A stretch of 64,000 nt of DNA from Tethya wilhelma (Eukaryota > Porifera > Demospongiae > Tethyida > Tethyidae), in the NCBI GenBank assembly GCA_964030475.1, contig CAXIPT010000030.1:124001-188000 (forward strand), read 5' to 3'. A program made the position numbers and the translations under genes. Numbering within the stretch: position 1 is the first letter of the stretch; the number at the start of each line of letters is the position of its first letter. Of the stretch, positions 19,555-48,180 are shown piece by piece. The notes beneath the pieces were generated by a model that saw only the letters and a program-made list of their open reading frames with translations, ran no database searches and was not told where the DNA came from.

Positions 19555-21009
19555 ATTAATTGATTAGGGATGGTAGTACAGATGTATATCTTGATCAGTT
19601 ATTAGGAAAAGCAGAACGTTACTACATGAATGCATTGTCTGTCTCCACTAAAGGTATAGTGTGATTGTGCTAAAACGTGAACCCAATGAGTTGTGTTAAT
19701 AACTACTGTGATATTAGCCTGGCAAGCAAACATGGACTTACAGTATGTCATGAATGCCTATGCCTGTGTATAGCCTCCTAATAGCTATATCGTGAAATCT
19801 GATAGAGCCATGGGTGTGTTGTTGAGACGGGTTGTTAATGAAGCTAGAACTGACGAACTAAGAACACAAAGTAGGTTCTGCCTTTTTGACTCACAGAGAA
19901 GTCAGTGCCCAGGAAGCTGTGTATAGAATACTATCTTTGCCCATGAAACACTTGAGTAGGTCTGTTGTATTGTAGACACTAACCAGAAAAATGAAAAAAA
20001 TAGCAGTATTGAAAGATAAGAAGAGCCTCAAAGACTTGCCTGATGATGACACAAATGTGTTTCAAAAAAGCACATAGACCTGCACAGTTACAGTCAATGT
20101 GTCCAGCTGCCAAGTACACTACTGATTATAAACAAGACAGTGACTGTGATGTTTTGCTCCCCAGTGACAATAATGCAGCCTCCTCATCATCATGTATTAA
20201 GCTATCTGATAACATATGCACCATGAAGCACAACAGACTCCAGTGGCGGATCTAGGAAATTGAATAGGGGGGTTCCAATTAATGCGCGCGGAGCGCGCGA
20301 AACATTTTTACATAGCCACGCCCACTTTCGGTCGCAACAGCCCCGCCCTTTTAGCGCTCGTGCAGCTAAAATTTTGCCAAAAAAGCCTGAATGGAAGAAA
20401 ACAACGGCAAGAAAGAGACAGAAACTCTATATCTTTCATAAAAGACTAATATTCAGCGTGATTCTGAGTTGCTTTTAGTATTTTTAAGTTGAAAGGAGGG
20501 TTCCATCTTGGCCTTTTCCAATCTGCACAGTTAATTATAATGCGAGATCTCAGCTGAAAGGGGGGTTCCGTGGAACCTTGAACCCCCCCCTGGATCCGCC
20601 ACTGGACTCATGTTGTATTTCCCATGGTATGATGAACACAGTGACCTACTAGGTGTTTATTCTAGCTATGAAGAGCATTACCAGCATGTCCAGAGAACTG
20701 TGTTAGACAATGAGAGTCTGGAGAACACTGATGAGATTGAGTTTGACGACAATCTAAACCCTGGAATCAGCTTGCCCCATCCAATTAAGAGAGTAGAGCT
20801 CAATCCCTAGCAGAAGGTAGTGAGACATTAACAGAAGTTTCTGAACAAGACCTTAGAGACAATGCCGATGTAATTGCACCATCATCATCTAGATCTGGGT
20901 TGAGTGTAAGTGCTGCCAATAGCAATGAAATACCAGCAGATGAATACAGAAGCCTTTTCCGTGGTTTGAATGAAAAACAGAAAAAATTGTATCTTTCCAT
21001 CATAATTGT
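19555..21009 (+). pseudogene. Helitron Rep-Y2 to helicase-N fragment, upstream part
   Basis: Collinear with 38150-39370 of the larger Helitron at nucleotide level. It includes the equivalents of YMNALSVSTK, the Tyr-containing Rep region (changed here), RAMGVLLRRVVNEARTDELR, SAQEAVYRILSLPM, and the acidic linker EHYQHVQRTVLDNE. At 19811 it keeps the frame CCATGGGTGT where the 38.4-kb copy has an extra T, so the two copies carry independent lesions. Interrupted by a MITE (20241-20604). Cut at 21010-21016 by the 7.26-kb transposon and resumes at 28285. Confidence 0.8.
20241..20604. mobile_element. 364-bp MITE, TIR CAGTGGCGGATCTAGG, TSD GACTC
   Basis: Ends CAGTGGCGGATCTAGG and CCTGGATCCGCCACTG. 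TSD GACTC at 20236-20240 and 20605-20609. Just inside are GGGGGGTTCC and AACCCCCCCC runs. Same family as 1457-1835. Comparison with 38930-38960 shows that it interrupts the Helitron. Confidence 0.9.
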
Positions 21010-21016
21010 GGTAAGG
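21010..21016. repeat. Left TSD GGTAAGG of the 7.26-kb transposon
   Basis: GGTAAGG here and again at 28278-28284. Deleting the element plus one copy restores the Helitron sequence GTGGTAAGGAAGCAG, matching 39380-39395 (GTGTAAGGAAGCAG) of the other copy. Confidence 0.93.
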
Positions 21017-21667
21017 TAGGGTTCCCACTACGAAATATAGATTTTCAGGATATGCTTTCTTGACACCGCTGGCATGCTTACCTCCTTGGAGAGAACCTCT
21101 GGTTAAAATTTCAGCCTGTTCTGAGCACTCTTAGTCCAGTTACAGCTCTTGCTGCACTTTGAGCAAGCGCAATTGCGTGACGTCATCACTACTTTTGCGA
21201 CAAACGACCCCTACCTGAAACAAAGAAAGCTTGAACCTTGGAACTGGAGGTGCGCAAATCAAGTGTGTTGTCTGAGGTAAGAGCAGGGCTTGATATAAGG
21301 CAGCTAGTGCTTTTTTTCACTGCCTATTGCTAGATATACATGCATGTACTGCACTACCGCTCCATAGCCACAAAGTTGTGACAGCATCCAGAATTTCTGA
21401 ACAGCTTCAATGCTGCTCCCTCACAGCATTTTTGTGTTTGGGGGGACACAGTGTACACCCATGTTGACTTTCAGTTTATGTCAGTTAAAGGTTCCATCTG
21501 GCTGGCCCTGTTTGTTTGAATTTGTGGTGTTTTCTATTTAATGACCACTCTCTTGTACACATGTAGGATACAAGTAGCAAGGTATTGCTGTCTAACTGCA
21601 CCTGCATACTTCTTGAATTGAAGGAGTGCTCAAAATGGCCTCAACTATGCTCCCTAACTCAAGTAAG
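21017..21667. repeat. Left TIR with promoter, exon 1 and splice donor
   Basis: Inverted counterpart of 27639-28277. Carries a CRE-like TGACGTCA at 21178-21185, a possible non-coding donor (CTGAGGTAAGAG, about 21278) and coding exon 1 (21635-21662, start MASTMLPNS). Similarity ends just after the GTAAG donor. Confidence 0.88.
21178..21185. promoter_or_regulatory. CRE-type palindrome TGACGTCA in left TIR
   Basis: Perfect 8-bp CREB/ATF consensus, repeated at 28119-28126 in the right TIR. It lies about 450 bp before each start codon. Function is inferred from sequence only. Confidence 0.5.
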
Positions 21668-24600
21668 TGTCTATTTCCTGTATGTAATCTTGTCAATTGA
21701 GACATAACTCTTTGCCCTTGTCCAAGCAACTTTTCACCATCTCTCTTCTGGGCTGATCCCTACCTTGCTTACTAAGTTGATATTTGTCATTTGGCTGTGG
21801 CCATATCTTTGTACAGTAATTAGCTACATTTAATGAGCATGCAATATCTGCAGGTCAAACATCGAGGTCAACTCCAACGTATGGAGACTTGATTGACTTA
21901 TTTGAAAAAGTTTATAATAATAATCCTAACAGTGAAGAAGCTCTCTTGTCTGAGTTCAAGAAATTTTATCCTGAGTGTCCAGTTGGACGTCCCCGAAGAT
22001 TTTATGATACAGTACAACGTATTGTGGCACCAACGAAGCCTTCATTGATCAAGAAACCATGTCTTACTGGATCACCATTACTGACATATAGGAGAAAAGA
22101 ATGGAAACCCAGAATCCGGAATCCAGTGGGGTCTGCACCAGGTTCGTTAATGTTGTATTTACATACCTTGACTATGCTACTTTAAGGTGCAAATTAGCTT
22201 AGGATGTTCTATATAAACTAGATTCCACTGTGCCTACTATATATACGTCATGTAATTTCTGATTTCTGCAGCTGCTGTTTATCCACCCTACCTTGAGGAG
22301 TGTGGTCTCACTGAGGAGATACTAGAAGCAGCATTCAACCAAGTTCTTGAAGGCAAGGAACCCACATGGCATGTCAAAGGTATACCAGAGACTAAATTCT
22401 ACAAAGAGCTGCATCATTTTCTGAAAAAGTGGCCTGTATCCCGTAGAACTACGAAACAAGCTATTGGGAGATTCTACATGGCTATTGACCAGAATTTTAA
22501 AGGATTACGTGTGGACAATGTGTACAGACTGATTGAACGATTGCCAGGATATGTGCATTCAAAAGTTATGTCTTATGGCAAAGTGCAAGCTATTTCGACA
22601 GCTTCCACTCAGCAAATAGAGGCTATGCAAGTAGAAGCAGAGGCTTCCACTCAGCAAATAGAGGCATTAAGCTTAGAGTGTGCACAACTAAGGAAACGAT
22701 TTGAAGAGTCTCGAAAGGAACTAACTTGTGCTAGGAAAGCGCTGCAAGACATTAGCAATGAGAAAGTAAAATTCCAAAAGCAATGTAGTACAGCTAAAGC
22801 CAAAGCTAAAGAGGCAAGACTCGAGTATGCAGTACTAGAAAATACATTTGCTGAATTACAGGAGGAAAACATCGATCTTTCATCTGCTATTTCAGATTTA
22901 CGAATTGAGTTGGAGAGCTGTGGTGATGAACATAGCTGTAGCTGTAAGGACAGTGCTGACATAGGTTTCTCATTACAAACAAAACATGGGAGAAGGTACT
23001 CTCCAGCTGTTAGGCGCTTGTACTACCATCTGTTGTCACAACAAGTTCCAGCTGTAAAGATCGTGGACATTATAAAAACTGTGATTAGATGTTTCTTCCC
23101 GGCTGTGGATGTTGATACACTGCAACTCCCCAAAAGATCCTGTGCTGATTACATGCGCAAATGTGAGCTGGCAACATTGAGTAATGCTCACAAGGCCACA
23201 GTTCTCTCTGAATGTGACTCAGGTTTTAGATTGAACACAGACGGTACCACCAAGCATCAAAAAAAGATAGTTGGTGTGGGAATCAATGACATGGTGATCA
23301 GTGCAAATGAAGTGGCAGATGGTACTGCAATCAGTGCAATTGAAGATGTCTGAAATGAGTTAGAGAAGCTGCGTGAAATTGCTCATTGTCTCAGATTGCC
23401 TAATGCTGACAGAATCAACTGGACTCTGTTCGCTTCTTCAACTTCAGATAGTGCAGCTACCCAGAAGCGTTTTAATAAGCTAATTGAGGACCGCAGAGAT
23501 GATGATGCACTTAAATTTGGCTTAGCTACACCAGAAACTGTGGAAATTGTTGAATCATTTTGCTCAATGCATCTGGGTGTTAACTTGCGAAAGGCTTTCT
23601 TGAGTGGAATGATTCCTAAGGACACCTTAACAGACAGGCACCACCCCATTGACAAATTTGTCCATGAATTCTGCAAGCTCCTGGGAAAACATGGTACTCC
23701 TGAGTATGGCAGTGGTGTTAACGACTTTCCAGACTATCTGAAGCTTATGATAGAGGGCGGTTCTCTTGATGCAGATTCTCAGCTGTATTATCAAGGTTGT
23801 ACCAGGGTCAACCTTCTCCGCCAGGTAGGAAGTCGTTATTTCGTCACAGCTAGCAATGCAGCTAGGATTTATTTCCTTGCTGATGCAGCTGTAGCATTCC
23901 TTAAGTACACTGGAAAAGATCGTGGTAATAAGCTAGAAGTGGAGGTATATGCTAAACTAACAAATGTACAAGAAATGGCTCAACTACGTGCAGATGCATT
24001 ATTATATTACCATGTATATGCTGATCTGGTTATGCTATCCAAGTCAAAGGAGCTAGGTAAAAGTGTAATGGACATGAACGACCACTACTTGGAATTGCTG
24101 TGCTTTTTAAGTGAGGTTCAGGATAATCCAGAGATAGTATTGAGGAAAGAGCGAGAGGTATTTCAATCAGAGAAGCGGCTGTATGGCAGAAACCCAGTTT
24201 TGAATCATCGCCAACATAAGAATGTTGATCTCATATATAACAAGCTCTTTAGGAAAACAGGGGATGAGTCCAGTAATCTCTTTCCAATGATCGTTGAAGG
24301 TGCAGCCAGCATGAAAGAAAAGCTGTTGTCGTATGCAGAAAAGCATCTGCCAGGTGGAGAATACTGGACACCTGAACCTGCTGTGAGAAAGGTTCTCATG
24401 CAACTCAAGCCTAGTAATGACTTTTGTGAGTCGATTCTAGGTCTCAACGACTATTTAACAACAGCAATACCTAATTTGACACAAGCTTCAAGATCAAATC
24501 TTGTGCAAGTGAAAAAAAATCAAACCATGAAGTGGCTGGATGAGCTTTCTGTGGAGAAACAAGAAGTAATTGTTGATCTAGCTGCACGGGAAAGATTGAA

Positions 24601-25194
24601 GGTGAATGCTGAGCAGAAACAGAGGAAGAAAGATCTGGATGAACAAAGGAGACAGCGATTACATGCAGCTCATGAAAAAAGAGAGGCTTTGCAACGAAAA
24701 GCCCAAAAACAGAGAGATGAACTGTCAGAACACCATCTGATCACATCTTCTCATGAACTCCGGCAAACCATAGAAGAAATTGAAGGCAGCAGTACCTCTC
24801 AACGGCAAAAGAATCGAAAAAGCTTGCATTGTTAAAAACACAGATAAATCTTAGGAAAAAAGTACTAGGTCAATCTAGCATTCACATTCCGTTCACACAG
24901 TCTCGAAAGCAGCGGCCGCTGAGTGAGATTTCAAGGGATTTGGAGTCTTTTATAGACAACAATCCCTTAGAGCATTCAGAATATTTTCAGGATCCAAGTA
25001 CTCTGGTTGGGAAATGCATACGACACAAGTTTCTAGATGCAGATACGAACAGTTTCAAATGGTATAACGGTACTATAGTTGAATACGATCCACTTGAAAA
25101 GAAACATGAGGTGAAGTATGAGAATGAAACTGACCAGTACAAGTTTGACTTGATTTTAGATATACTAAGTGGAGATTTGGAAGTACTGGCATAG
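21635..25194 (+). pseudogene. Large DDE-type transposase, spliced, with Tudor-like C-terminus
   Basis: Exon 1 21635-21662 (phase 1, donor GTAAGT), exon 2 21854-22141, exon 3 22272-25194; all junction phases agree. Order of parts: an N-terminal region (YGDLIDLFEKVY, VGRPRRFYDT); a second conserved block (YKELHHFLKKWPVSRRTTKQ); a long coiled coil with a small internal duplication; CSCK; then the core. The core has YSPAVRRLYYHLLSQ, FRLNTDGTTKHQKKIVGVG (candidate first Asp), NADRINW, SSTSDSAATQKRF (candidate second Asp) and FCSMHLGVNLRKAF (CxxH). A basic Glu/Arg-rich coiled coil follows. The C-terminus has VGKCIRHKFLDAD and WYNGTIVEYDPLEKKHEVKY, which looks Tudor/Agenet-like. Lesions: TGA at 23351-23353 and a 1-bp deletion near 24812-24820 that shifts the last about 120 codons. 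Otherwise open for more than 900 codons, so decay is recent. Confidence 0.8.
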
Positions 25195-25700
25195 AACGGT
25201 ATTCACTGGAACTATAATTCAAATATCCTTATTCTTGTTAGCTGGATATAACAATTTCTCATAGTCTTGGTCTCAGGCATATCTGCTACTTGACTTCATT
25301 TTTTTAACATCATAGTTATAATAATTTGTGTAGCTTTTGATAAAACTCAATGAAGAATTAATGTTGAACCTATTTATTAGGTAATAGACTCTACAAGTGT
25401 TTCAGTTTATTAGTGAGCTCAATAACCACAATACGAGTGGCATCAACCTCTGACTGAGCAGCCTCCACGACCTTCTTAAACTTGGCAAATTCTTTTGTGA
25501 GCTCAGCAACTTGATCACTACATGTCTTCATTTCTGCCCTTAACAGTATGACCTCTGAATGCAATTGTTGGGTTGAATAATCTCTACCTAAACAAGAATG
25601 ATACAATATTATATGAGTGACAGGTAGCCGCTAGCTAGCTCACAGCTAGTGGATACTATCTAGATATCTATAAAACACCTTACTTGAGTTAGGGAGCATA
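23736..25700. repeat. Tandem duplication unit 1 (1965 bp)
   Basis: The unit runs from ATCTGAAGCTTATGATAGAG to CTTGAGTTAGGGAGCATA and is followed directly by unit 2. It covers the transposase 3' half, the minus-strand coiled-coil exon and the inner edge of the right TIR. By eye there are about 16 differences between units, mostly transitions. Confidence 0.9.
25391..25587 (-). pseudogene. Duplicate small coiled-coil exon (unit 1)
   Basis: Same exon as 27347-27543: acceptor TTGTTTAG at about 25594-25588, then RDYSTQQLHSEVILLRAEMK and a stop at 25391-25393. Its upstream exon 1 was truncated by the duplication joint at 25700/25701. Only the inner ATG (MLPNSS) and the GTAAGG donor remain (about 25698-25682), so it may still be translatable from the second ATG. 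The exon itself is intact. Confidence 0.6.
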
Positions 25701-27160
25701 ATCTGAAGCTTATGATAGAGGGCAGTTCTCTTGATGCAGATTCTCAGCTGTATTATCAAGGTTGTACCAGGGTCAACCTTCTCCGCCAGGTAGGGAGTCG
25801 TTATTTCGTCACAGCTAGCAATGCAGCTAGGATTTATTTCCTTGCTGATGCAGCTGTAGCATTCCTTAAGTACACTGGAAAAGATCGTGGTAATAAGCTA
25901 GAAGTGGAGGTATATGCTAAACTAACAAATGTACAAGAAATGGCTCAACTACGTGCAGATGCATTATTATATTACCATGTATATGCTGATCTGGTTATGC
26001 TATCCAAGTCAAAGGAGCTAGGTAAGAGTGTAATGGACATGAACGACCACTACTTGGAATTGCTGTGCTTTTTAAGTGAGGTTCAGGATAATCCAGAGAT
26101 AGTATTGAGGAAAGAGTGAGAGGTATTTCAATCAGAGAAGCGGCTGTATGGCAGAAACCCAGTTTTGAATCATCGCCAACATAAGAATGTTGATCCCATA
26201 TATAACAAGCTCTTTAGGAAAACAGGGGATGAGTCCAGTAATCTCTTTCCAATGATCGTTGAAGGTGCAGCCAGCATGAAAGAAAAGCTGTTGTTGTATG
26301 CAGAAAAGCATCTGCCAGGTGGAGAATACTGGACACCTGAACCTGCTGTGAGAAAGGTTCTCATGCAACTCAAGCCTAGTAATGACTTTTGTGAGTCGAT
26401 TCTAGGTCTCAATGACTATTTAACAACAGCAATACCTAATTTGACACAAGCTTCAAGATTAAATCTTGTACAAGTGAAAAAAAATCAAACCATGAAGTGA
26501 CTGGATGAGCTTTCTGTGGAGAAACAAGAAGTAATTGTTGATCTAGCTGCACGGGAAAGATTGAAGGTGAATGCTGAGCAGAAACAGAGGAAGAAAGATC
26601 TGGATGAACAAAGGAGACAGCGATTACATGCAGCTCATGAAAAAAGAGAGGCTTTGCAACGAAAAGCCCAAAAACAGAGAGATGAACTGTCAGAACACCA
26701 TCTGATCACATCTTCTCATGAACTCCGGCAAACCATAGAAGAAATTGAAGGCAGCAGTACCTCTCAACGGCAAAAGAAATCGAAAAAGCTTGCATTGTTA
26801 AAAACACAGATAAATCTTAGGAAAAAAGTACTAGGTCAATCTAGCATTCACATTCCGTTCACACAGTCTCGAAAGCAGCGGCCGCTGAGTGAGATTTCAA
26901 GGGATTTGGAGTCTTTTATAGACAACAATCCCTTAGAGCATTCAGAATATTTTCAGGATCCAAGTACTCTGGTTGGGAAATGCATACGACACAAGTTTCT
27001 AGATGCAGATACGAACAGTTTCAAATGGTATAACGGTACTATAGTTGAATACGATCCACTTGAAAAGAAACATGAGGTGAAGTATGAGAATGAAACTGAC
27101 CAGTACAAGTTTGACTTGATTTTAGATATACTAAGTGGAGATTTGGAAGTACTGGCATAG
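25701..27160 (+). pseudogene. Duplicated transposase 3' half (unit 2)
   Basis: Starts mid-gene (KLMIEGSSLDADSQLYYQGC...) with no promoter or N-terminus. Two stops relative to unit 1: CGA to TGA near 26117 and TGG to TGA near 26498. It keeps the unshifted reading AAAGAAATCG near 26776 that unit 1 has lost, and so preserves a full Tudor-like C-terminus. Probably not expressed. Confidence 0.88.
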
Positions 27161-27660
27161 AACGGTATTCACTGGAACTATAACTTATTCTTGTTAGCTG
27201 GATATAACAATTTCTCATAGTCTTGGTCTCAGGCATATCTGCTACTTGACTTCATTTTTTTAACATCATAGTTATAATAATTTGTGTAGCTTTTGATAAA
27301 ACTCAATGAAGAATTAATGTTGAACCTATTTATTAGGTAATAGACTCTACAAGTGTTTCAGTTTATTAGTGAGCTCAATAACCACAACACGAGTGGCATC
27401 AACCTCTGACTGAGCAGCCTCCACGACCTTCTTAAACTTGGCAAATTCTTTTGTGAGCTCAGCAACTTGATCACTACATGTCTTCATTTCTGCCCTTAAC
27501 AGTATGACTTCTGAATGCAATTGTTGGGTTGAATAATCTCTACCTAAACAAGAATGATAACATATTATATGAGTGACCCGCTAGCTAGCTAACTTAATCA
27601 CAGCTAGTGGATACTATCTAGATATCTATAAAACACCTTACTTGAGTTAGGGAGCATAGT
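25701..27660. repeat. Tandem duplication unit 2
   Basis: Direct repeat of 23736-25700. Small indels near 25215 versus 27182 and 25622 versus 27578 separate the units. Because the right TIR continues intact beyond 27660, the duplication arose inside an element whose ends were preserved. Confidence 0.9.
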
Positions 27661-27671
27661 TGAGGCCATTT
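27347..27671 (-). CDS. Small coiled-coil protein sharing exon 1 with the transposase
   Basis: Exon 1 27671-27644 lies in the right TIR and reads MASTMLPNS, the same as the transposase exon 1. The donor is GTAAGG at 27643. Exon 2 27543-27347 follows acceptor TTGTTTAG, and the phase (1) fits: the split codon is A+GT. The product is about 74 residues: RDYSTQQLHSEVILLRAEMK, then KTCSDQVAELTKEFAKFKKV and a heptad-like helix ending ELTKLKHL-type residues. No stops or frameshifts. The role is unknown; it could pair with the transposase coiled coil or act as an accessory or regulator. Convergent with the transposase. Confidence 0.65.
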
Positions 27672-28277
27672 TGAGCACTCCTTCAATTCAAGAAGTATGC
27701 AGGTGCAGTTAGACAGCAATACCTTGCTACTTGTGTCCTACATGTGTACAAGAGAGTGGTCATTAAATAGAAAACACCACAAATTCAAACAAACAGGGCC
27801 AGCCAGATGGAACCTTTAACTGACATAAACTGAAAATCAACATGGGTGTACACTGTGTCCCCCCAAACACAAAAATGCTGTGAGGGAGCAGCATTGAAGC
27901 TGTTCAGAAATTCTGGATGCTGTCACAACTTTGTGGCTATGGTGCGGTAGTGCGGTACATGCATGTATGTCTAGCAATAGGCAGTGAAAAAAAGCACTAG
28001 CTGCCTTATATCAAGCCCTGCTCTTACCTCAGACAACACACTTGATTTGCGCACCTCCAGTTCCAAGGTTCAAGCTTTCTTTGTTTCAGGTAGGGGTCGT
28101 TTGTCGCAAAAGTAGTGATGACGTCACGCAATTGCGCTTGCTCAAAGTGCAGCAAGAGCTGTAACTGGACTAAGAGTGCTCAGAACAGGCTGAAATTTTA
28201 ACCAGAGGTTCTCTCCAAGGAGGTAAGCATGCCAGCGGTGTCAAGAAAGCAATCTATATTTCGTAGTGGGAACCCTA
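27639..28277. repeat. Right TIR with promoter, exon 1 and splice donor
   Basis: Reverse complement of 21017-21667. Its tip lacks about 11 bp present near 21041 in the left TIR. TGACGTCA at 28119-28126. The TSD follows at 28278-28284. Confidence 0.88.
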
Positions 28278-28284
28278 GGTAAGG

Positions 28285-28500
28285 AAGCAGTTATTGCCCC
28301 CAAACCCATTGAGCCATATAGAATGTTTCTTAGTGGTCCTGGAGGTGTTGGTAAATCACATGTGATAAGACTTGTTCACTCTGATACACTAAACTGTCAA
28401 ATACCATTGAACCAGATGATGTAATAACTGCACCAACTGGTGTTGCTGCCTTTAATATCAATGGCATGACCCTTCACTCAGCATTTTTGCTAGTGGTGAA
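28285..28500 (+). pseudogene. Helitron helicase-N fragment, downstream part
   Basis: Resumes the fragment cut at 21009: GGAAGCAGTTATTGCC, then MFLSGPGGVGKSHVIRLVHS (Walker A of the Pif1-like helicase) and APTGVAAFNINGMTLHSAF. Homology ends soon after, where the Walker B part would be expected; that part lies inverted at 18.75-19.08 kb. Confidence 0.85.
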
Positions 28501-29389
28501 TTTCCTTCTGCACCTTAGTACCAGCACTGACTTCCAATTCAAGGTCATTTTGTATAGTTTTCAAGTTCTTTGGTGCTATTTCAACTACAGTGCTATAGCT
28601 GCAACTAGGCCCTCTCTTGGAATATTATTATTGATAAGTCAAGTAAGCGTTCTCTCATGTTCTACCATCTGTGAAGTGTTCTCTTTGTTCTACCATTAAT
28701 CTACAGTACATGAAAGTCAAATATTGTTAAATTGCATTGTGCTGTCACTGTGTCTGTTGTTTACATGTTGTTCTCGTTCTTTTGCTGTTGGCACTTGCGT
28801 GTGGCATTGTATTCTAACTGTTAACGGCCTCGGCAGTATCCTAGGCTATAACTGTTGTATCGCAGGCTCAGATTGAGGTCAACAGCCCAGGCCTAATCCT
28901 TCAGTCTGCTGTCAGAGTGGGATTAGTGCTAGAGGGCTTGTGAGTCAAAGCCTCTGCCTGCATCTCAGTGGGTTTTTTTTTAGCAGTGCATAAGCTTGGC
29001 TTTTCAGTGCAAATTTCAATACTATCATGGCTGTTGAATCTGGCTCGCTAGGTGCTTCATATACTGATGGGACCAACATGATCTCAGTCTCTATTGAAGG
29101 GTCTAGACAAATACAGTAGTGCTCAACAAGGCAAAGAAAGCATTACAATTCAAATTGGGTCTCCCATATTGAGTTTGAAAACCTGGGAGAAAAGTCAAAG
29201 GCTGGTAAATGGAAACAATCCATTAAATTTGGCGATGCATCCATTGGCACATACTCTTTTCACGAAGTGACACAAGTGTAAGACATAGGCCACTCTCCTC
29301 CCCCTTCAATCAATCGAATTGTGTCTCTATGTCTTCCAGCTGTAAGTCCAATTCTTGCTTTTGGTAAAGCTCACCGCCTTCATGGGGAT
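28501..29389. other. Mostly unassigned; possible captured exon
   Basis: 29035-29280 (+) has a coding-like run (HIEFENLGEKSKAGKWKQSI, FGDASIGTYSFHEVTQV) with an in-frame stop upstream. The family was not recognised. The rest shows no structure. Confidence 0.3.
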
Positions 29390-41371: not shown

Positions 41372-42106
41372 ACAAATGTATACTTAGCACAACAATCATG
41401 TCCACCCACAATTTTGATCACTTGGAATAAACCAACCACAAACTAATTGATCATATGTACTATAATAGACCACTTAAGACTGTTGTTGTTAAAGTATAAC
41501 TACATTATAGTGACCACAAAACAAATATATACTGTTCCCTACTACTAATCATGAACAATTCAGCACATCAAACAAAAATACACAAAGTAACACCAAATTT
41601 ATATACAAAGCAAACATGTAAGCAAATGTGAAAGCAAACATTAAAGCAAATATGAAAGCAATGTGCAACCACAACAACTTGATTTGTAAACTTCACTCTA
41701 TGATCTCAAACTATCCAAGATCGGAAAAAAATTACATTAAGTTTTAGAATATCCAATATACCTCATTCACTTACTCATATATTATTTCAATAATATATTA
41801 TATAGGCGGCAATCCTTGTGTGTAACATGGAACATACCTTTAAAAGAGTACGATCAACAATCTCAAATACAGAAAGCTACAAATGGATCAATTCATAATG
41901 TCAATGCACTTTGTTTTTTCAACAAAATTTATCAGAATAAACAATTAACGTGTATTTTTCGTAATTTACAAAATTAATACTTTGTTGTGTAACGATTGTA
42001 TAACCAAATTAATGTATATATTAATCACCTTCTTATAACTGAAGGAATTTAGTTAATGCTCCCACAGCAAGTCTTTCTTATAAATAAACATTTCACCTAA
42101 CAAAAT
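41372..42106. other. Helitron 3' spacer
   Basis: AT-rich, with a partial echo of the EEP end near 41405-41490 (AATAGACCAC, GTGACCACAA), perhaps a decayed tandem copy of the EEP C-terminus. No gene. Confidence 0.5.
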
Positions 42107-42328
42107 ATACCGTATAGCTGGAAATATTGACGGTCAAAAAATTAACGGTTTGCTCCGCAGAACGTAAAATAAAAATATTGACGAATTTAAATTTGACGAT
42201 TTGCGCGTGCGCATAATACATTCATATACAGCGGCAAAAATATTGGCGGATTTAAATTTGACGATTTGGACTTTGACCGTCAAACCGTCAAATTAAAATC
42301 CCCCTCAATATTTCCGGCTATACGGTAT
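42107..42328. mobile_element. 222-bp MITE, TIR ATACCGTATAGC
   Basis: Starts ATACCGTATAGCTGGAAATA and ends with CAATATTTCCGGCTATACGG plus TAT. The interior repeats AAATTTGACGATTTG and contains GCGCGTGCGCAT. If the element is CCGTATAGC...GCTATACGG, the target is TA, which would fit a Tc1/mariner source. Confidence 0.8.
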
Positions 42329-42553
42329 GTATGTTAACCCACTAGCAATGTAGATTTTTTTTCAACATACTCAATCTTTATAATGTTTACACAAAACATA
42401 CACATAAACATCTTTGGTTTCCTCAATCTTTATAATCTTTACACAAAACATACAGTCACATAAATGTTCACACTCAGCATACACATAACAATTTACAGAC
42501 ACAATGTTTTAACAGCTAATAACATTTTTGTTTCCTTACAGGTTTACAACAAA

Positions 42554-43613
42554 TTAAAACTTAAATGAAGTCACAACAAAGTTTTCGTTGTACTGTACAC
42601 TCGAAAGTGTAGGCACACTCGCCAACAGACCTTCATCCACTCCGTCCAAATCAGTAGCTTTTACCAGATCTTTTAATATGTTTCCAAATGCAGTCAGAAT
42701 AACTCTATCACCACTGTCATGGAGAAACATCAGCTTAGCAACGAGGCGAGTTTCACACACTGCATACCTCTGCACCATCTGACATTCTGATCGAATACAT
42801 TTTCCAATCACAGGTGGACAACCGCGACCAGGCTCAACAGTACTCTTGCACCATTGACAGACTTTTTTACACAAAAATTCTGCAACTGCTGCAATTGTGG
42901 CATTTTTCAATTCCTTGTTGGTGAGAGAAAATTGATGTTTTACAACTTTTGAAAAGGTTTGATACTTTCTATAGTGGAAGTATCTTTTCTCATACTGAGG
43001 TACTTTATACCACCAAATTCTTTGACCATAAAAGATTTCAATCTATAAATTTACCACCAACAACTGATCCGATGGACTGGCCCCAAATAGTAGCATGTCC
43101 TACTGCTGTTCCATCAGCAATCGTCAAGTCCTGTTTAGTCATCCCATTGTCCAAGGTTTCGGCAGTACCAACCTCATAGACCTTCACAGCTACAGTTACT
43201 AGGTCAAACACAGACCTCTTCTCTATATCAGACACAGATATTTGGTGGTCACCATCCTCAAATTCAATGCAGCTCACATCTACTGCTTTGTCTGATACAA
43301 CAATTTCGGTACTTGACTTCAGTAGCACTTTGATCTTCTCTCCTTGTCGGCTATGCTGTAACTGACAATCTTTCAATTTGATAGTGTCTCTTCGCTTCAA
43401 GTGATTTTCCATGATGGAAAGTTGATCTTCAGAGAACGCCACCATTCAGACACTCGACTTGCCATTGTGCAATGTCCCATCGAAGAATTTACTTTTTCGG
43501 CCTTTCTTCAACGGAGAGAGAGATGTTATGACAACATTAATAGTGGCACTACTCTCAGGGCCTGTTGTACTGAAATCCACCACTTCTCGGGGATGTTTAC
43601 CAAGTTTTGACAT
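42554..43613 (-). pseudogene. RPA-like ssDNA-binding protein of the Helitron
   Basis: ATG at 43613 (MSKLGKHPREVVDFS). Blocks: INVVITSLSPLKKGRKSKFF, then an in-frame TGA at 43446-43448 (probably from CGA). MVAFSEDQLSIMENHLKRRD, IKVLLKSSTEIVV and KQDLTIADGTAVGHATIWGQ form an OB-fold region. A frameshift falls at about 43040. Then LKNATIAAVAEFLCKKVCQW, a zinc ribbon (CQWC ... CIRSEC), RVILTAFGNILKDLV, and a stop at 42554. Same domain order as 15892-16946. Tail to tail with the Helitron coding sequence. Confidence 0.8.
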
Positions 43614-43664
43614 TGTGAACAAGTTTTCACAACCCAAATACCATCAACAACTGAAAATTTGTGA

Positions 43665-44200
43665 TTTTTTATATACACCAAAGTTTCAAGCCACACCTAC
43701 ATCCTTTGCCCTGACAACTTTTGTTCACTTTCCCCAAATTTTTATACATTATGCATGATGTTAGCCACACGTGACAACTTTTTTTACAACTTACGTTCAC
43801 TTTACCCAATTTTTATACATTATGCATGATGTTAGCCACATATGACAACCTTTTTTACAGCCTTGTCAACTTTCGTTCACTCTCCCAATTTTTTTGCATG
43901 ATGTTAGCCACGCGTGACAACTTTTCTTACAACTTTCGTTCACTTTTCCCAATTTTTATACATTATTCATGATGTTACTCACACATGACAACTTTTTTTT
44001 ACAACCCTGACAACTTTCGTTCACTTTGCCCAAATTTTTATGTACTATACATGATATTAGCCACACGTGACAACCTTTTTTACAGCCCAAACAAATTTCA
44101 TTCACTTTCCCCAATTTTTTATACATTATACATGAGTTAGCCACACGTGACAACTTTTTTATAACTTTCTTAGCCCTGACAACTTTCACTCACTTATACA
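43665..44200. repeat. Minisatellite, ~70-125-bp units
   Basis: Five to six irregular repeats of GTTAGCCACACGTGACAACT plus CTTTCGTTCACTTT and CCAATTTTTATACATTATGC. It lies directly upstream of the RPA gene start and may be part of the same element. Confidence 0.75.
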
Positions 44201-44639
44201 TATTCTACAAATGAAATGCACAAAAATCAATTGCACTTCATACAAACCCATCCTACTTAGAGCCCTGATAGCCTTCATTTTTGTACAATTTATAATTATT
44301 TCAACCAATATTGGCAATTACGCAAGAACACACTTTACAATAAGATAAGCATTGTTAAAATAAATTTTCTACATGCACCCTACAATATTGTGTAATGACC
44401 CTCCAATTTTCAACATTGTATATACAACAAATTCATGCATATTCTTTGTTTGGCAGATACAAGACACGCTCCTCAATCCTCATCATACATAAGAAATGGA
44501 GCAATTGTGAAGCAATTACATAATTATTATACATCCAGCCTAAATGGAAGGGCTGGAGGATGTATATAAGTATATGACAAACAGAACGTGTATATGTCAC
44601 TTTTAATATCAAATGATATAAATATTTCAGACTGAAATG
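44201..44639. other. Spacer between two tandem arrays
   Basis: No gene. A short inverted motif near 44540-44560 (CATCCAGCCTAAATGGAAGGGCTGGAGGATG, split by a loop) could form a hairpin. Confidence 0.45.
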
Positions 44640-46275
44640 AATACAGTTCATGACCTAGTGGATCATCTCCCTAAACTACGATATATACAGCCATCCAATA
44701 TAGCTAAACTATGTCCAAATTTAAAGTTCAAACTGGATCAGTAGTATTTTTCGGAACATTATCTGCAAGGCTCCTCTATACCTTCTATACACTATATACC
44801 ATTTCATACTGTAAAAATTCAACTCAACTAATTAAGTTACAATTTTTGTCTGGATGTCATTTAACACATTTATAGCCATCACAGCCTTTAACTTCTTATC
44901 ATAATCTTGGATTTTCCTTATATCCATTTTAACCCAACACAATTGTACTTTGTCATCCTTCATTAGATCTAACACTTTAACCCAACACAATTGCATGCAC
45001 TTTGTCATCCTTCCTTAGATCTAACATTTGCTCACTTCAAAGTTGAATAAGTTCTATAAATTATTTCCATCGTCTTTCTTCATTTGTTATATACGAAGAT
45101 CTTGTACAAATCAGATTGATACATCCTTTCATTCTCCATCACCTAAATTTACTGGCTAATTTAGCAAGCAATTGTGAACTTCCAATCTTTCAAGACTACA
45201 ATGTCCTAATGGATCATCTCCCTAAACTACAATACAACCATGCATTGGATCTAACACTTCTCACTTTAGTTCACCTTCAAAGTTGAATAAGTCCTATACT
45301 TCCATCATCTTTCTTCATTTGTTATATACGAAGATCTTGTACAAATCAGATTGATACATTCTTTCATTCTCCATCACCTAAATTTACTGGCTAATTTAAC
45401 AAGTAATTATGAACTTCCAATCTTTCAAGACTACAATGAATACAGTTCATAACCTAATGCATCATCTCCCTAACTAGGATACAACCATGCAATATAGCTA
45501 AACTGTATCTAAATTTAAAGTTCAAACTGGATCAGTAGTATTTTTCGGAACATTATCTGCAGGGCTCCTCTATACCTTCTATAGACTATATACCATTTCA
45601 TACTGTAAAGATTCAACTCAACTAAATTGTACTTTGTCATCCTTCATTAGATCTAACACTTGCTCACTTCAAAGTTGAATAAGTCCTATATTTTCATCGT
45701 CTCTCTTCATTTGTTATATACGAAGATCTTGTATAGATGACATTCTTTCATTCTCCATCACCTAAATTTACTAGCTAATTTAGCAAGCAATTACGAACTT
45801 CCAATCTTTCAGACTACAATGAATATACAGTTCATAACCTAATGGATCATCTCCCTAAACTACAATACAACCATGCAATATAGCTAAACTGTATCCAAAT
45901 TTAAAGTTCAAACTGGATCAGTAGTATTTTTCGGAACATTATCTGCAGGGCTCCTCTATACCTTCTATACACTATATACCATTTCATACTGTAAAGATTC
46001 AACTCAACTAGTCATCCTTCATTAGATTTACTGGCTAATTTACTTTAGTCTTGTAACAAGAGGTTCATGTTGACCTACATCACCAAATGCATCCTCTGAG
46101 AGATTTAGATGAGAACTTAATGGTTTGGCAAGCAATTATGAACTTCCAATCTTTCAAGACTACAATGAATACAGTTCATGACCTAATGGATCATCTCCCT
46201 AAACTACGACACAACCACGCATTGCATGAATCTAACACTAGCTCACTTTAATTCACCTTCAAAGTCGAATAAGTT
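44640..46275. repeat. ~383-bp tandem satellite array, irregular
   Basis: The landmark GTTCAAACTGGATCAGTAGT followed by TTTTTCGGAACATTATCTGC occurs near 44726, 45520 and 45905, so spacing is about 790 then about 385. A second landmark, TTGTTATATACGAAGATCTT, occurs near 45083, 45317 and 45711. Units are rearranged and partly deleted. Non-coding. Confidence 0.8.
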
Positions 46276-46604
46276 CTTCAACATACAATATCGCAACTAT
46301 ATTATTTTGTTTTAATTTGTCATCCTACTCAACTTAAATGCAACTTATTTTAATTACACATATTTTACTTTCTATGATGCACCCTCCAAGCTCTTATTTG
46401 TATAACATGATTATTTTATACATACTTATTGTTATACCAATACAATATAAACAACTTGAAACAAACAACATTATAACACAACTTTAAACTATCTATTGAG
46501 TTGAATATACTGTAAGGAACACCGTACCCTGCAGCTCTTTTCTGAATCATCATCAAGTAAGCCAACTACAATATTATACAAAACAAACAATATTAAACAC
46601 AATT
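46276..46604. other. Gene-free spacer
   Basis: AT-rich, nothing recognised. Confidence 0.5.
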
Positions 46605-47115
46605 ATTCCCAGTACGGTAGTACTGGGTACATAGGAAATGGCACGGATGGCCCATTAGCGCAATACAAATATTCACACTGCAAAAAAATGAGCGCTTGGC
46701 ACTATAAGGCTTCTAAAGCTATTTTTTTAGCTCATTCTCTTTCTAATGGGCCTAAAAACATGGCCTAAAACCATCGCTAAGGTATTTAACTAAAATATGC
46801 CAAACCTCCAATTTTCTCCATCTTCTTCTTCTTATTCGTCTATGTTGGCAAGACTTTTCTCAAAGACTGCTCACTTTCAGAAGCTGATTCTTGAACGAAT
46901 TAACTTGGTTTCTTTGTCTTCACGTGCTTTTTGCATCGGTTATTCGTCTCTCTAGCTGAGTAGCTAGATACAAGACGAAAAGCGCCTTCTCCGTATGGGA
47001 GCCATTCATTTCTATAATCATTAATAATTCATCAGCTACTTGGGAAATGAAATTGACGACCCTTTTCCAGATAAACAAGTGTGCATTATTTGGAATCCGA
47101 ATATTCTTTGCCCAA
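46605..47115 (+). repeat. Repeat family C, copy 2
   Basis: Hairpin CCCAGTACGGTAGTACTGGG at 46608-46627, then the same order of blocks as copy 1 through AACTTGGTTTCTTTGTCTTC to GCATTATTTGGAATCC. Confidence 0.78.
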
Positions 47116-47401
47116 GTCTTTGCCTGCCTGCTTCTCAGTTACCTGAAGATTTCTGGTTGTACTGAAGTCTCCATAACCTTTCAGTCTTCTGTATTTAAGA
47201 GATGAATAGACTACTTTCAGGTTTGTTATGTAAGCAAAGCAAGTAAATTTGTTAGATACACTGAGCTCCAGCCTCTGGATGCTTCACTTAGAATACTGAT
47301 AGCATATAAGCTATAATATCCATGCTGATAGTGTACAAGTAACTACTGTATACACACGTGCTCAAATGTGATTCATAGAATAATGAAAAAATGAGAACAA
47401 A

Positions 47402-47677
47402 ACAAGTAAAAAAAAACATTGGAAATGTATTGAGACATAGGAATGGCCAAATCGTAAAAATAAAGCAAACAAGATGGAATGCCTCTTAGAGTGTGTAAAG
47501 AAATATTCCTATGGGCAACATGAGGGACTCAACATAGGAAGAGAGTACTGCATGCAGCCCACACAGGAAGAATAATTCTGCACACACTCTAACAGGCATT
47601 CCATCTTGTTTGCTTTATTCTTACGATTTGGCCATTCCTATGTCTCAATACATTTCCAATGTTTTTTTTTTACTTGT
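47402..47677. mobile_element. Repeat family D foldback, copy 2
   Basis: Inverted arms of about 95-100 bp: ACAAGTAAAAAAAAACATTG ... GCAAACAAGATGGAATGCC, and the complement ending TTTTACTTGT. The right arm is part of the 586-bp segment also found at 34624-35209. Confidence 0.85.
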
Positions 47678-48180
47678 AAATATATATAAATTGCTATAAT
47701 TGTTGCAAAACAATCTCAACATCATGTTTACAATTACATCATACACTAAACAGTTATTTTGTATTATGTAATAGAATATAGTTTGTGTTGTTTAATTTTA
47801 ACTGTAACTTTGTACTATTAGTTTCTGTACGCCTTACTATTGTTACATTTTCTTTGTCTGTAGTTACAATGCACCTGATTGTATGAAGGCTCGCCTTTGC
47901 GAAGGCTTGGTACCTTTTTAATACTGTCACTAGTTTCTTACATATTTTTATTGTTCTTGTACTCTTTCACTGTATAGAGCTAAAGATAATATTTTGAAAC
48001 TCTGAACTGAATTTTCAACAAATTTCGCCTTTGGTCGCATTTTAGCTAGTTGTGCTTAGAGCTTGCGAATTCACAAGACTTAACCTTTTCAACAATATAA
48101 TAATATCCAATGCCACTCAAAATACTCAGAATAGATTCAGTATGTACGCACCAAGGGTTATGCACCTTGGTGCCTTCATT
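47595..48180. repeat. 586-bp inverted counterpart of 34624-35209
   Basis: Identical in length and, where checked, sequence to the reverse complement of 34624-35209. Beyond both ends the flanks differ. Confidence 0.85.

Follow-up and report, generated by a model that had tools for sequence, protein, structure and literature searches.

Predicted gene starts in both ends of a sponge transposon

A 64,000-nucleotide (nt) window of the genome of the sponge Tethya wilhelma (contig CAXIPT010000030.1, positions 124,001 to 188,000) contains a DNA transposon of 7.26 kb that spans positions 21017-28277 of the window, with terminal inverted repeats (TIRs) of ~640 base pairs (bp) at both ends that are 98% identical (Table 1). 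This copy is referred to below as C30, and other C-labels denote relatives at other loci of the same genome assembly. Alignment of 21017-21667 with 27637-28277 gave 639 identities over 655 columns, including 11 gap columns of which ten represent a single indel. Both TIRs contain ATGGCCTCAACTATGCTCCCTAACTCAA followed by GTAAG, beyond which similarity is lost except for three letters after a gap, confirming the original prediction that the two ends share an exon and its donor. Each TIR encodes an ATG, 9 codons and a splice donor that is in phase 1 with its own gene, and the two genes are convergent.

On the plus strand, the proposed splice from the TIR exon (21635-21662) to 21854 is in phase with the transposase; by sequence this predicted junction is of phase 1 and gives MASTMLPNS-SQTSRSTPTYGDLIDLF. 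On the minus strand, the proposed splice to 27543 was likewise found to be in phase with the small coiled-coil gene, while the exon itself had been placed two bases off at 27671-27644, the correct span being 27669-27642. The corrected junction, also predicted to be of phase 1, would give a protein of 74 amino acids (MASTMLPNSSRDYSTQQLHSEVILL...LTNKLKHL) with its stop codon at 27347-27349. A tandem duplication of ~1.96 kb (23736-27658), the copies of which are ~98-99% alike, repeats the 3′ part of the transposase together with a copy of the small gene. This inner small-gene copy (25391-25598) is probably dead because its ATG exon has been lost. Since the window element is decayed, the conclusions below depend on its relatives.

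Table 1. Coordinates of the transposon and its predicted parts within the window
Feature	Position	Strand	Remarks
Target-site duplication, left copy	21010..21016		GGTAAGG, 7 bp; one insertion only
Left TIR	21017..21667	+	Tip TAGGGTTCCC; identity to right TIR stops after exon and GTAAG
Splice donor GT of predicted untranslated leader exon	21277..21278	+	Last exon base is tip + 260
Predicted acceptor AG ahead of ATG exon (21567-21662)	21565..21566	+	Placed by eye; similar tract in C3a
TIR exon of transposase gene, coding part	21635..21662	+	MASTMLPNS plus 1 nt, phase 1
Transposase exon 2	21854..22141	+	N-terminal PTYG domain; homologous exon in relatives
Transposase exon 3	22272..25194	+	Helical domain, coiled coil, DDE core, Tudor-like C-terminus; fold modelled on C1 relative
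Second copy of small-gene exon 2	25391..25598	-	Within tandem duplication
Tandem duplicate of 23736-25700	25701..27658	+	~1.96 kb, extra stops
Small coiled-coil gene, exon 2	27347..27543	-	AATAAA shortly past stop
Right TIR	27637..28277	-	
Small-gene TIR exon, coding part	27642..27669	-	MASTMLPNS plus 1 nt, phase 1
Splice donor GT of predicted leader exon, right TIR	28026..28027	-	Last exon base 28028 is tip + 250
Target-site duplication, right copy	28278..28284		GGTAAGG, 7 bp; one insertion only

The arrangement recurs in relatives within the same genome

The genome (124.6 Mb, 204 contigs) was searched with pieces of the window transposase, which matched many other loci at 22-97% identity. 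Twenty-eight merged stretches were read, of which 26 bear a transposase and two contain TIR fragments only; many of them are partial. The best case is C1:23987742-23993240, where exon 3 is open for 964 amino acids. Here the left TIR exon (MSELSANHVTPTKSDNSHTFQ/G) joins in phase 1 to GALPTYGVLIDLY, and the right TIR exon (MSELSTTNHVTASK/V) joins in phase 1 to the coiled-coil gene. The proposal that each TIR starts one of two convergent genes with an ATG, a coding exon and a donor thus holds in frame on both sides of a diverged element, the TIR of which gave no BLAST match to the window TIR though the layout is the same. The TIR exon is in frame on 4/4 sides in these two families (C30 and C1), and phase-1 junctions were found on the small-gene side in C30, C133, C1, C3a and C4b. 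C133 is a close copy of the window element that has kept its small gene, with the start MASTMLSNS. C3a has the small gene (58-62% identical) and its left exon has been deleted; the small gene of C4b carries a frameshift further on. In C7, C2, C32, C76 and other copies either no TIR pair reaching the gene or no convergent gene was found, and several of these contain assembly N or are decayed. Across the relatives, TIRs that bear a gene start appear to be widespread in the clade, and a shared peptide occurs in part of it.

Two TIR fragments of the window family in C107 (5066-5522 and 8113-8568) face each other, forming a 457-bp inverted repeat that is 98.7% alike and extends beyond both tips. 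A distant relative at C8:4678639 (~27% identity) was set aside as added support, as it showed no small-gene match and only a 27-nt inverted match.

The small protein resembles the coiled coil of the transposase

Relatives of the small protein were found initially by tblastn (C133 and C3a) and by eye (C10, C1 and C4b). A profile of six sequences, including the window copy, recovered its own members together with new relatives in C39 and C21 (E 6e-14 and 3e-4). A convergent relative is present in 10 of the 26 transposase-bearing regions, eight of a short form and two of a long form, and in all eight short-form regions the gene lies on the strand opposite to the transposase. The left ends of C4b and C9 also bear a small-gene match in sense orientation, with a trace in C4a (E 0.49). 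Such a sense copy of small-gene exon 2 stands upstream of the transposase at C4:1890750 and C9:3242063, and in C4 the TIR similarity runs through it. The long form (C157 and C67) comprises the exon-2 domain, the N-terminal part of exon 3, the coiled coil and a stop codon; it is open for 254 amino acids in C157, where the transposase side is interrupted by an assembly gap, and decayed in C67.

The profile was compared using hhalign with a transposase alignment of 67 sequences (A1), 65 of them from the 120 listed public relatives described below. It matched at one position, the long helix that follows the N-terminal domain (probability 96.2, score 62.3), the runner-up being far weaker (second alignment E 0.29). 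None of 200 column shuffles preserving the heptads scored above 33.9, and the reversed profile scored 15.1. The observed score being far above the shuffles, the likeness exceeds shared coiled-coil periodicity, and on the strength of this profile match the small protein derives from the coiled coil of the transposase itself, from which it has diverged. Comparison of the small gene between the window copy and C3a over 70 codons gave a proportion of synonymous differences (pS) of 0.82, which is saturated, and a proportion of nonsynonymous differences (pN) of 0.33, suggesting protein-level constraint in this one informative pair.

These values bear on the idea that the right-end transcript acts as RNA, either antisense to the 3′ end of the transposase or as a silencing primer, with the peptide being incidental. 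The convergent stop codons lie ~190 nt apart, so that the transcripts could overlap. Both the constraint in the C3a pair and the phase-1 junctions on the small-gene side in the five copies listed above (sites in relatives having been chosen by eye) argue against this account, which we regard as very improbable.

A further explanation is that the TIR grew through inverted duplication or gene conversion and so carried the promoter and first exons of the transposase over to the other end, leaving the convergent gene as a by-product with no role. Consistent with such growth, the inner boundary of the TIR shifts between copies, similarity ending within the first intron in C8 and running through small-gene exon 2 in C4b, where it breaks 13 nt past the donor and then resumes. 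Boundaries near the donor of the ATG exon agree instead with the two-gene reading favoured below: similarity ends 5 nt past this donor in C30 and ~17 nt past it in C10, and stops between two possible donors in C1. A boundary at the donor was rejected as a rule: C30 and C10 fit, C1 does so roughly, C4b breaks and resumes, and C8 and C3a end elsewhere. The long forms in C157 and C67 amount to an inverted N-terminal copy of the transposase, and the small gene is decayed in some copies (C4a). On the other side, the frame of the small gene has been kept between families (pN against pS, in one pair), and the same coiled coil is found across families with unalignable DNA as well as in public records. 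We consider this explanation unlikely.

Public relatives and the modelled fold of the transposase

With the protein of C1 exon 3 as query, 259 of 8000 scored candidates were identified as relatives; 120 were listed, one of them from the sponge Amphimedon queenslandica. The public proteins P0001 and P0080 run unbroken across the exon 2/3 junction and begin just before exon 2; they join these exons as in spliced messages, and their first residues could be either exon 1 or read-through of intron 1. Of 65 public candidates, 21 were identified as relatives using the profile of the small protein. P0121 starts with MASTTLSTSS..., followed by what appears to be an open intron and then the coiled coil, and P0139 is built likewise with MSEFST.... 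In P0124, P0129, P0134 and P0135 the residues differ ahead of a common ATDADSS, suggesting an exon-2 boundary at this point. P0137 and P0004 share an entry of 654442 for the longest contig, as P0125 and P0078 do one of 7747, which hints that the members of each pair are linked. Possible relatives in prokaryote or viral contigs were discarded, since none of the ten pattern matches in each of two collections was confirmed by tblastn.

The start of P0121 ahead of the same coiled coil, together with recurrence of the plan in same-genome relatives lacking a BLAST match in their TIR DNA, places the TIR exon beyond chance. That a long TIR merely happens to contain an ATG and GTAAG that are unused as an exon would agree with C10, where the exon is out of phase, and would leave unexplained both the in-frame joins on 4/4 sides in C30 and C1 and the MAST-like start of P0121; we give this idea almost no weight.

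The best structural match of a model of C1 exon 3 is Hermes, with a predicted RNase H core that contains a helical insertion. D317, D386 and E709 are invariant in A1 and lie close to the positions given by the offset of the range matched to Hermes, in which the triad is D180, D248 and E572. In the same model, residues 893-963 appear to form a C-terminal domain that is Tudor-like and near to the histone-mark reader Spindlin, and it is possible that this tail serves in chromatin targeting. A Pfam search returned only coiled-coil and Tudor matches, below the cut-offs, and found no Pfam family for the clade; a PDB sequence search gave no match at E <= 1.

The putative RNase H core with helical insertion and the DDE triad are like those of hAT elements, which make 8-bp target-site duplications and carry BED zinc finger and hAT dimerisation Pfam domains. 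In contrast to Hermes and other hAT elements, the present family has an extra coiled coil, a Tudor-like tail and 640-bp TIRs. No BED zinc finger or hAT dimerisation match was listed at E <= 1 for two relatives, although such absence is weak evidence, and the Pfam searches listed no MULE transposase, RAG1-like or RAG2-like match. Mutator/MULE elements make 9-bp target-site duplications. The GGTAAGG on both flanks of the window element looks like a 7-bp target-site duplication, a length seen in one insertion that differs from both the 8 bp of hAT and the 9 bp of Mutator. Membership in the MULE, RAG-like and hAT groups was set aside. By eye, no target-site duplication was recognisable at C3a or C8, and 7 bp was accordingly not adopted as a general feature.

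A probable leader exon within the TIR

Upstream of the ATG exon, each TIR probably also contains an untranslated leader exon that would be spliced to it. A donor of the leader type, defined as GGTA(A/G)(G/A) or GGTGAG, was present in 9 of the 11 ends tested and in 5 of 7 families (C30 with C133, C3a, C8, C10 and C1), at a distance of 250-282 nt from the tip. Both the pattern and the interval of 245-285 nt were picked after inspecting the sequences, and by batch the count was 8/8 ends followed by 1/3 (C133 positive, C157 and C21 negative). As the ends of one element are not independent, the fair count is the one by family. For comparison, 4.9% of random 520-nt pieces of these elements have such a donor at 245-285.

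Surroundings of the element

The element is inserted in a helicase-like reading frame (20541-21019 and 28227-28699) that, by eye, looks Helitron-like from the flanking open reading frames (ORFs); these gave no family match above cut-off. The reading frames on the two flanks disagree, so the host gene is probably decayed itself. Elsewhere in the window, positions 42000-48000 show a strong negative GC skew, down to -0.36, and tandem arrays occur at 43709-44169 (71/143 bp) and 45275-46010 (386-bp unit).

Discussion

We favour, with somewhat better than even confidence, the reading that the window holds a damaged copy of a two-gene transposon with a MuDR-like layout, belonging to a clade with numerous members in this genome and among public records, in which the partner of the transposase is a coiled-coil subunit derived from the transposase itself. 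The layout, the homology of the partner and its constraint are drawn from sequence, and the fold from a model. The mechanism that we infer adds promoter activity, splicing of the window copy, interaction of the two proteins and a direction of effect. Each long TIR would act as a gene start. It would comprise a promoter and probably the untranslated leader exon, the donor of which lies ~260 nt from the tip; several families would have a second TIR exon as well, with an ATG and a phase-1 donor. The left TIR would drive the Hermes-like DDE transposase with its N-terminal domain, coiled coil and Tudor-like tail. The right TIR would drive the convergent gene. Its product is a diverged copy of the coiled coil, extended in two elements of a different family to the N-terminal half of the transposase that contains it. 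By way of this coiled coil, the small protein would most likely associate with the transposase as a subunit lacking catalytic function, and co-expression from identical starts would set the ratio of partner to transposase. Because both genes share their start region, the partner would be made whenever the transposase is made, an arrangement that would suit either a limiter or an assembly subunit.

Several observations weigh against this reading. In the window copy, transposase exon 3 is broken twice, at 23351-23353, where a TGA occurs, and near 24810, where the frame shifts. By these searches, 16 of the 26 regions show no convergent relative, many of them being decayed or not reached at their 3′ end. 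The stretches read at C8:4678639, where no small gene was matched, contained a long run of N. For the small gene, the ratio between the window copy and C133 is 0.57 on only 11 changes, and pairs with C1 and C10 are near saturation. Splice sites in relatives were picked by eye with the wanted phase known, making 'in frame' weaker than it appears. The donor of C3a is poor, and TIR similarity in this copy ends 14 nt beyond the ATG. Both ends of C10 carry the TIR exon in phase 0, so that it is in frame with neither gene, and both ends of C4b carry it in frame for the small gene only, to which is added the interrupted TIR similarity of C4b described above. In C8 the leader exon and donor lie inside the TIR and each ATG exon outside it, and the convergent ORF at C8:3220300-3226900 (MADSTPDSPSS...) does not match the coiled-coil profile; this ORF is perhaps another partner gene. 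A leader donor of the defined pattern is missing from C157 and C21, which show only weaker candidates at 284 and 306.

The original prediction had further suggested that the shared N-terminus is a tag by which the two products recognise each other or the ends. This is not borne out, as the start differs by family (MASTMLPNS in the window, MSELS... in C1, MSNVSL in C4b), and it is also countered by C10 (out of phase), C4b (small gene only) and C8 (ATGs outside the TIR). C8, where the TIR lacks an ATG and the genes are open, in part represents the arrangement that the prediction itself had named as contrary to it. The transposase-derived coiled coil is the likelier basis for any mutual recognition of the two proteins. 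The idea that the TIR is a portable cassette able to trap exons fared no better: with up to 3 mismatches, the 31-mer of exon and donor was found at at least 3 places in 124.6 Mb, these being both ends of the window element and the TIR of one related copy. Other TIR fragments (C107 twice and C1:7707402) end before the exon.

The long TIRs of the maize Mutator element MuDR serve as promoters of the convergent genes mudrA (transposase) and mudrB, transcription of which starts within the TIRs or immediately internal to them (PMC3440606, PMC8224964). The present elements resemble MuDR in having the starts of two convergent genes borne by the TIRs, here judged from sequence. They differ from it in that the TIR holds an ATG exon with a donor and probably a leader exon, some families share the protein start, the partner is derived from the transposase, the modelled fold is Hermes-like and the target-site duplication is 7 bp. 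RAGL transposons also carry a convergent transposase and partner between TIRs, with 5-bp duplications (PMC7204232). The likeness lies in the convergent pair; the RAGL partner is RAG2-like, whereas here it is a small coiled coil, the duplication is 7 bp in one insertion and the ends bear exons. In a partial coverage of the literature, we found no description of TIRs with a coding exon common to two convergent genes, nor of the present transposase clade.

The P element is the best-known self-limiting cut-and-paste transposon of animals, acting through alternative splicing and deleted copies. Its truncated transposase products KP and 66-kDa bind P-element DNA or dimerise, and repress transposition (PMC7776569). 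Like KP, the small protein represents an oligomerisation segment derived from the transposase and lacking the catalytic core, and the long form in C157 (254 amino acids) resembles the KP type. KP is produced by small non-autonomous elements and the 66-kDa product by retention of an intron, whereas here a distinct convergent gene, started from a TIR of its own, would lie within the same element. Repression is a property of the P-element KP product and would extend to the present protein by analogy.

Whether the small protein is an in-built limiter of transposition we judge to be about an even question. A more specific and more tentative version, to which we give rather less than even chances, is that the limiter, a coiled-coil fragment of the transposase, is a conserved second gene started from the opposite TIR. 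Promoter and leader would be identical at the two ends, as would the coding exon in some families, so that poison subunit and enzyme would be made together, with the starts kept identical through concerted evolution of the two repeats. The convergent gene could instead be a positive accessory factor for synapsis, integration or assembly, an account that differs from the reading favoured here in the direction of effect only. Retention of the partner gene in several families would agree with such a helper, as would the description of mudrB as required for Mu integration (PMC8224964). Apart from the few residues at its start, the protein consists of hardly anything but a segment of the transposase coiled coil, and truncated P-element transposases repress (PMC7776569); on these grounds a helper seems doubtful. 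It counts against our reading that the sequence predictions of a repressor and of a helper are identical.

Taken together, the data point to a real and recurrent variant of the known two-gene layout with promoters in the TIRs. It offers a case of a protein-coding exon kept identical as part of a terminal repeat, and a candidate limiter or helper in the form of a dedicated gene made from the oligomerisation domain of the transposase and coupled to it by shared TIR starts. The clade would thereby provide a testable model of transposon self-regulation, and of TIR growth as a route to new genes.

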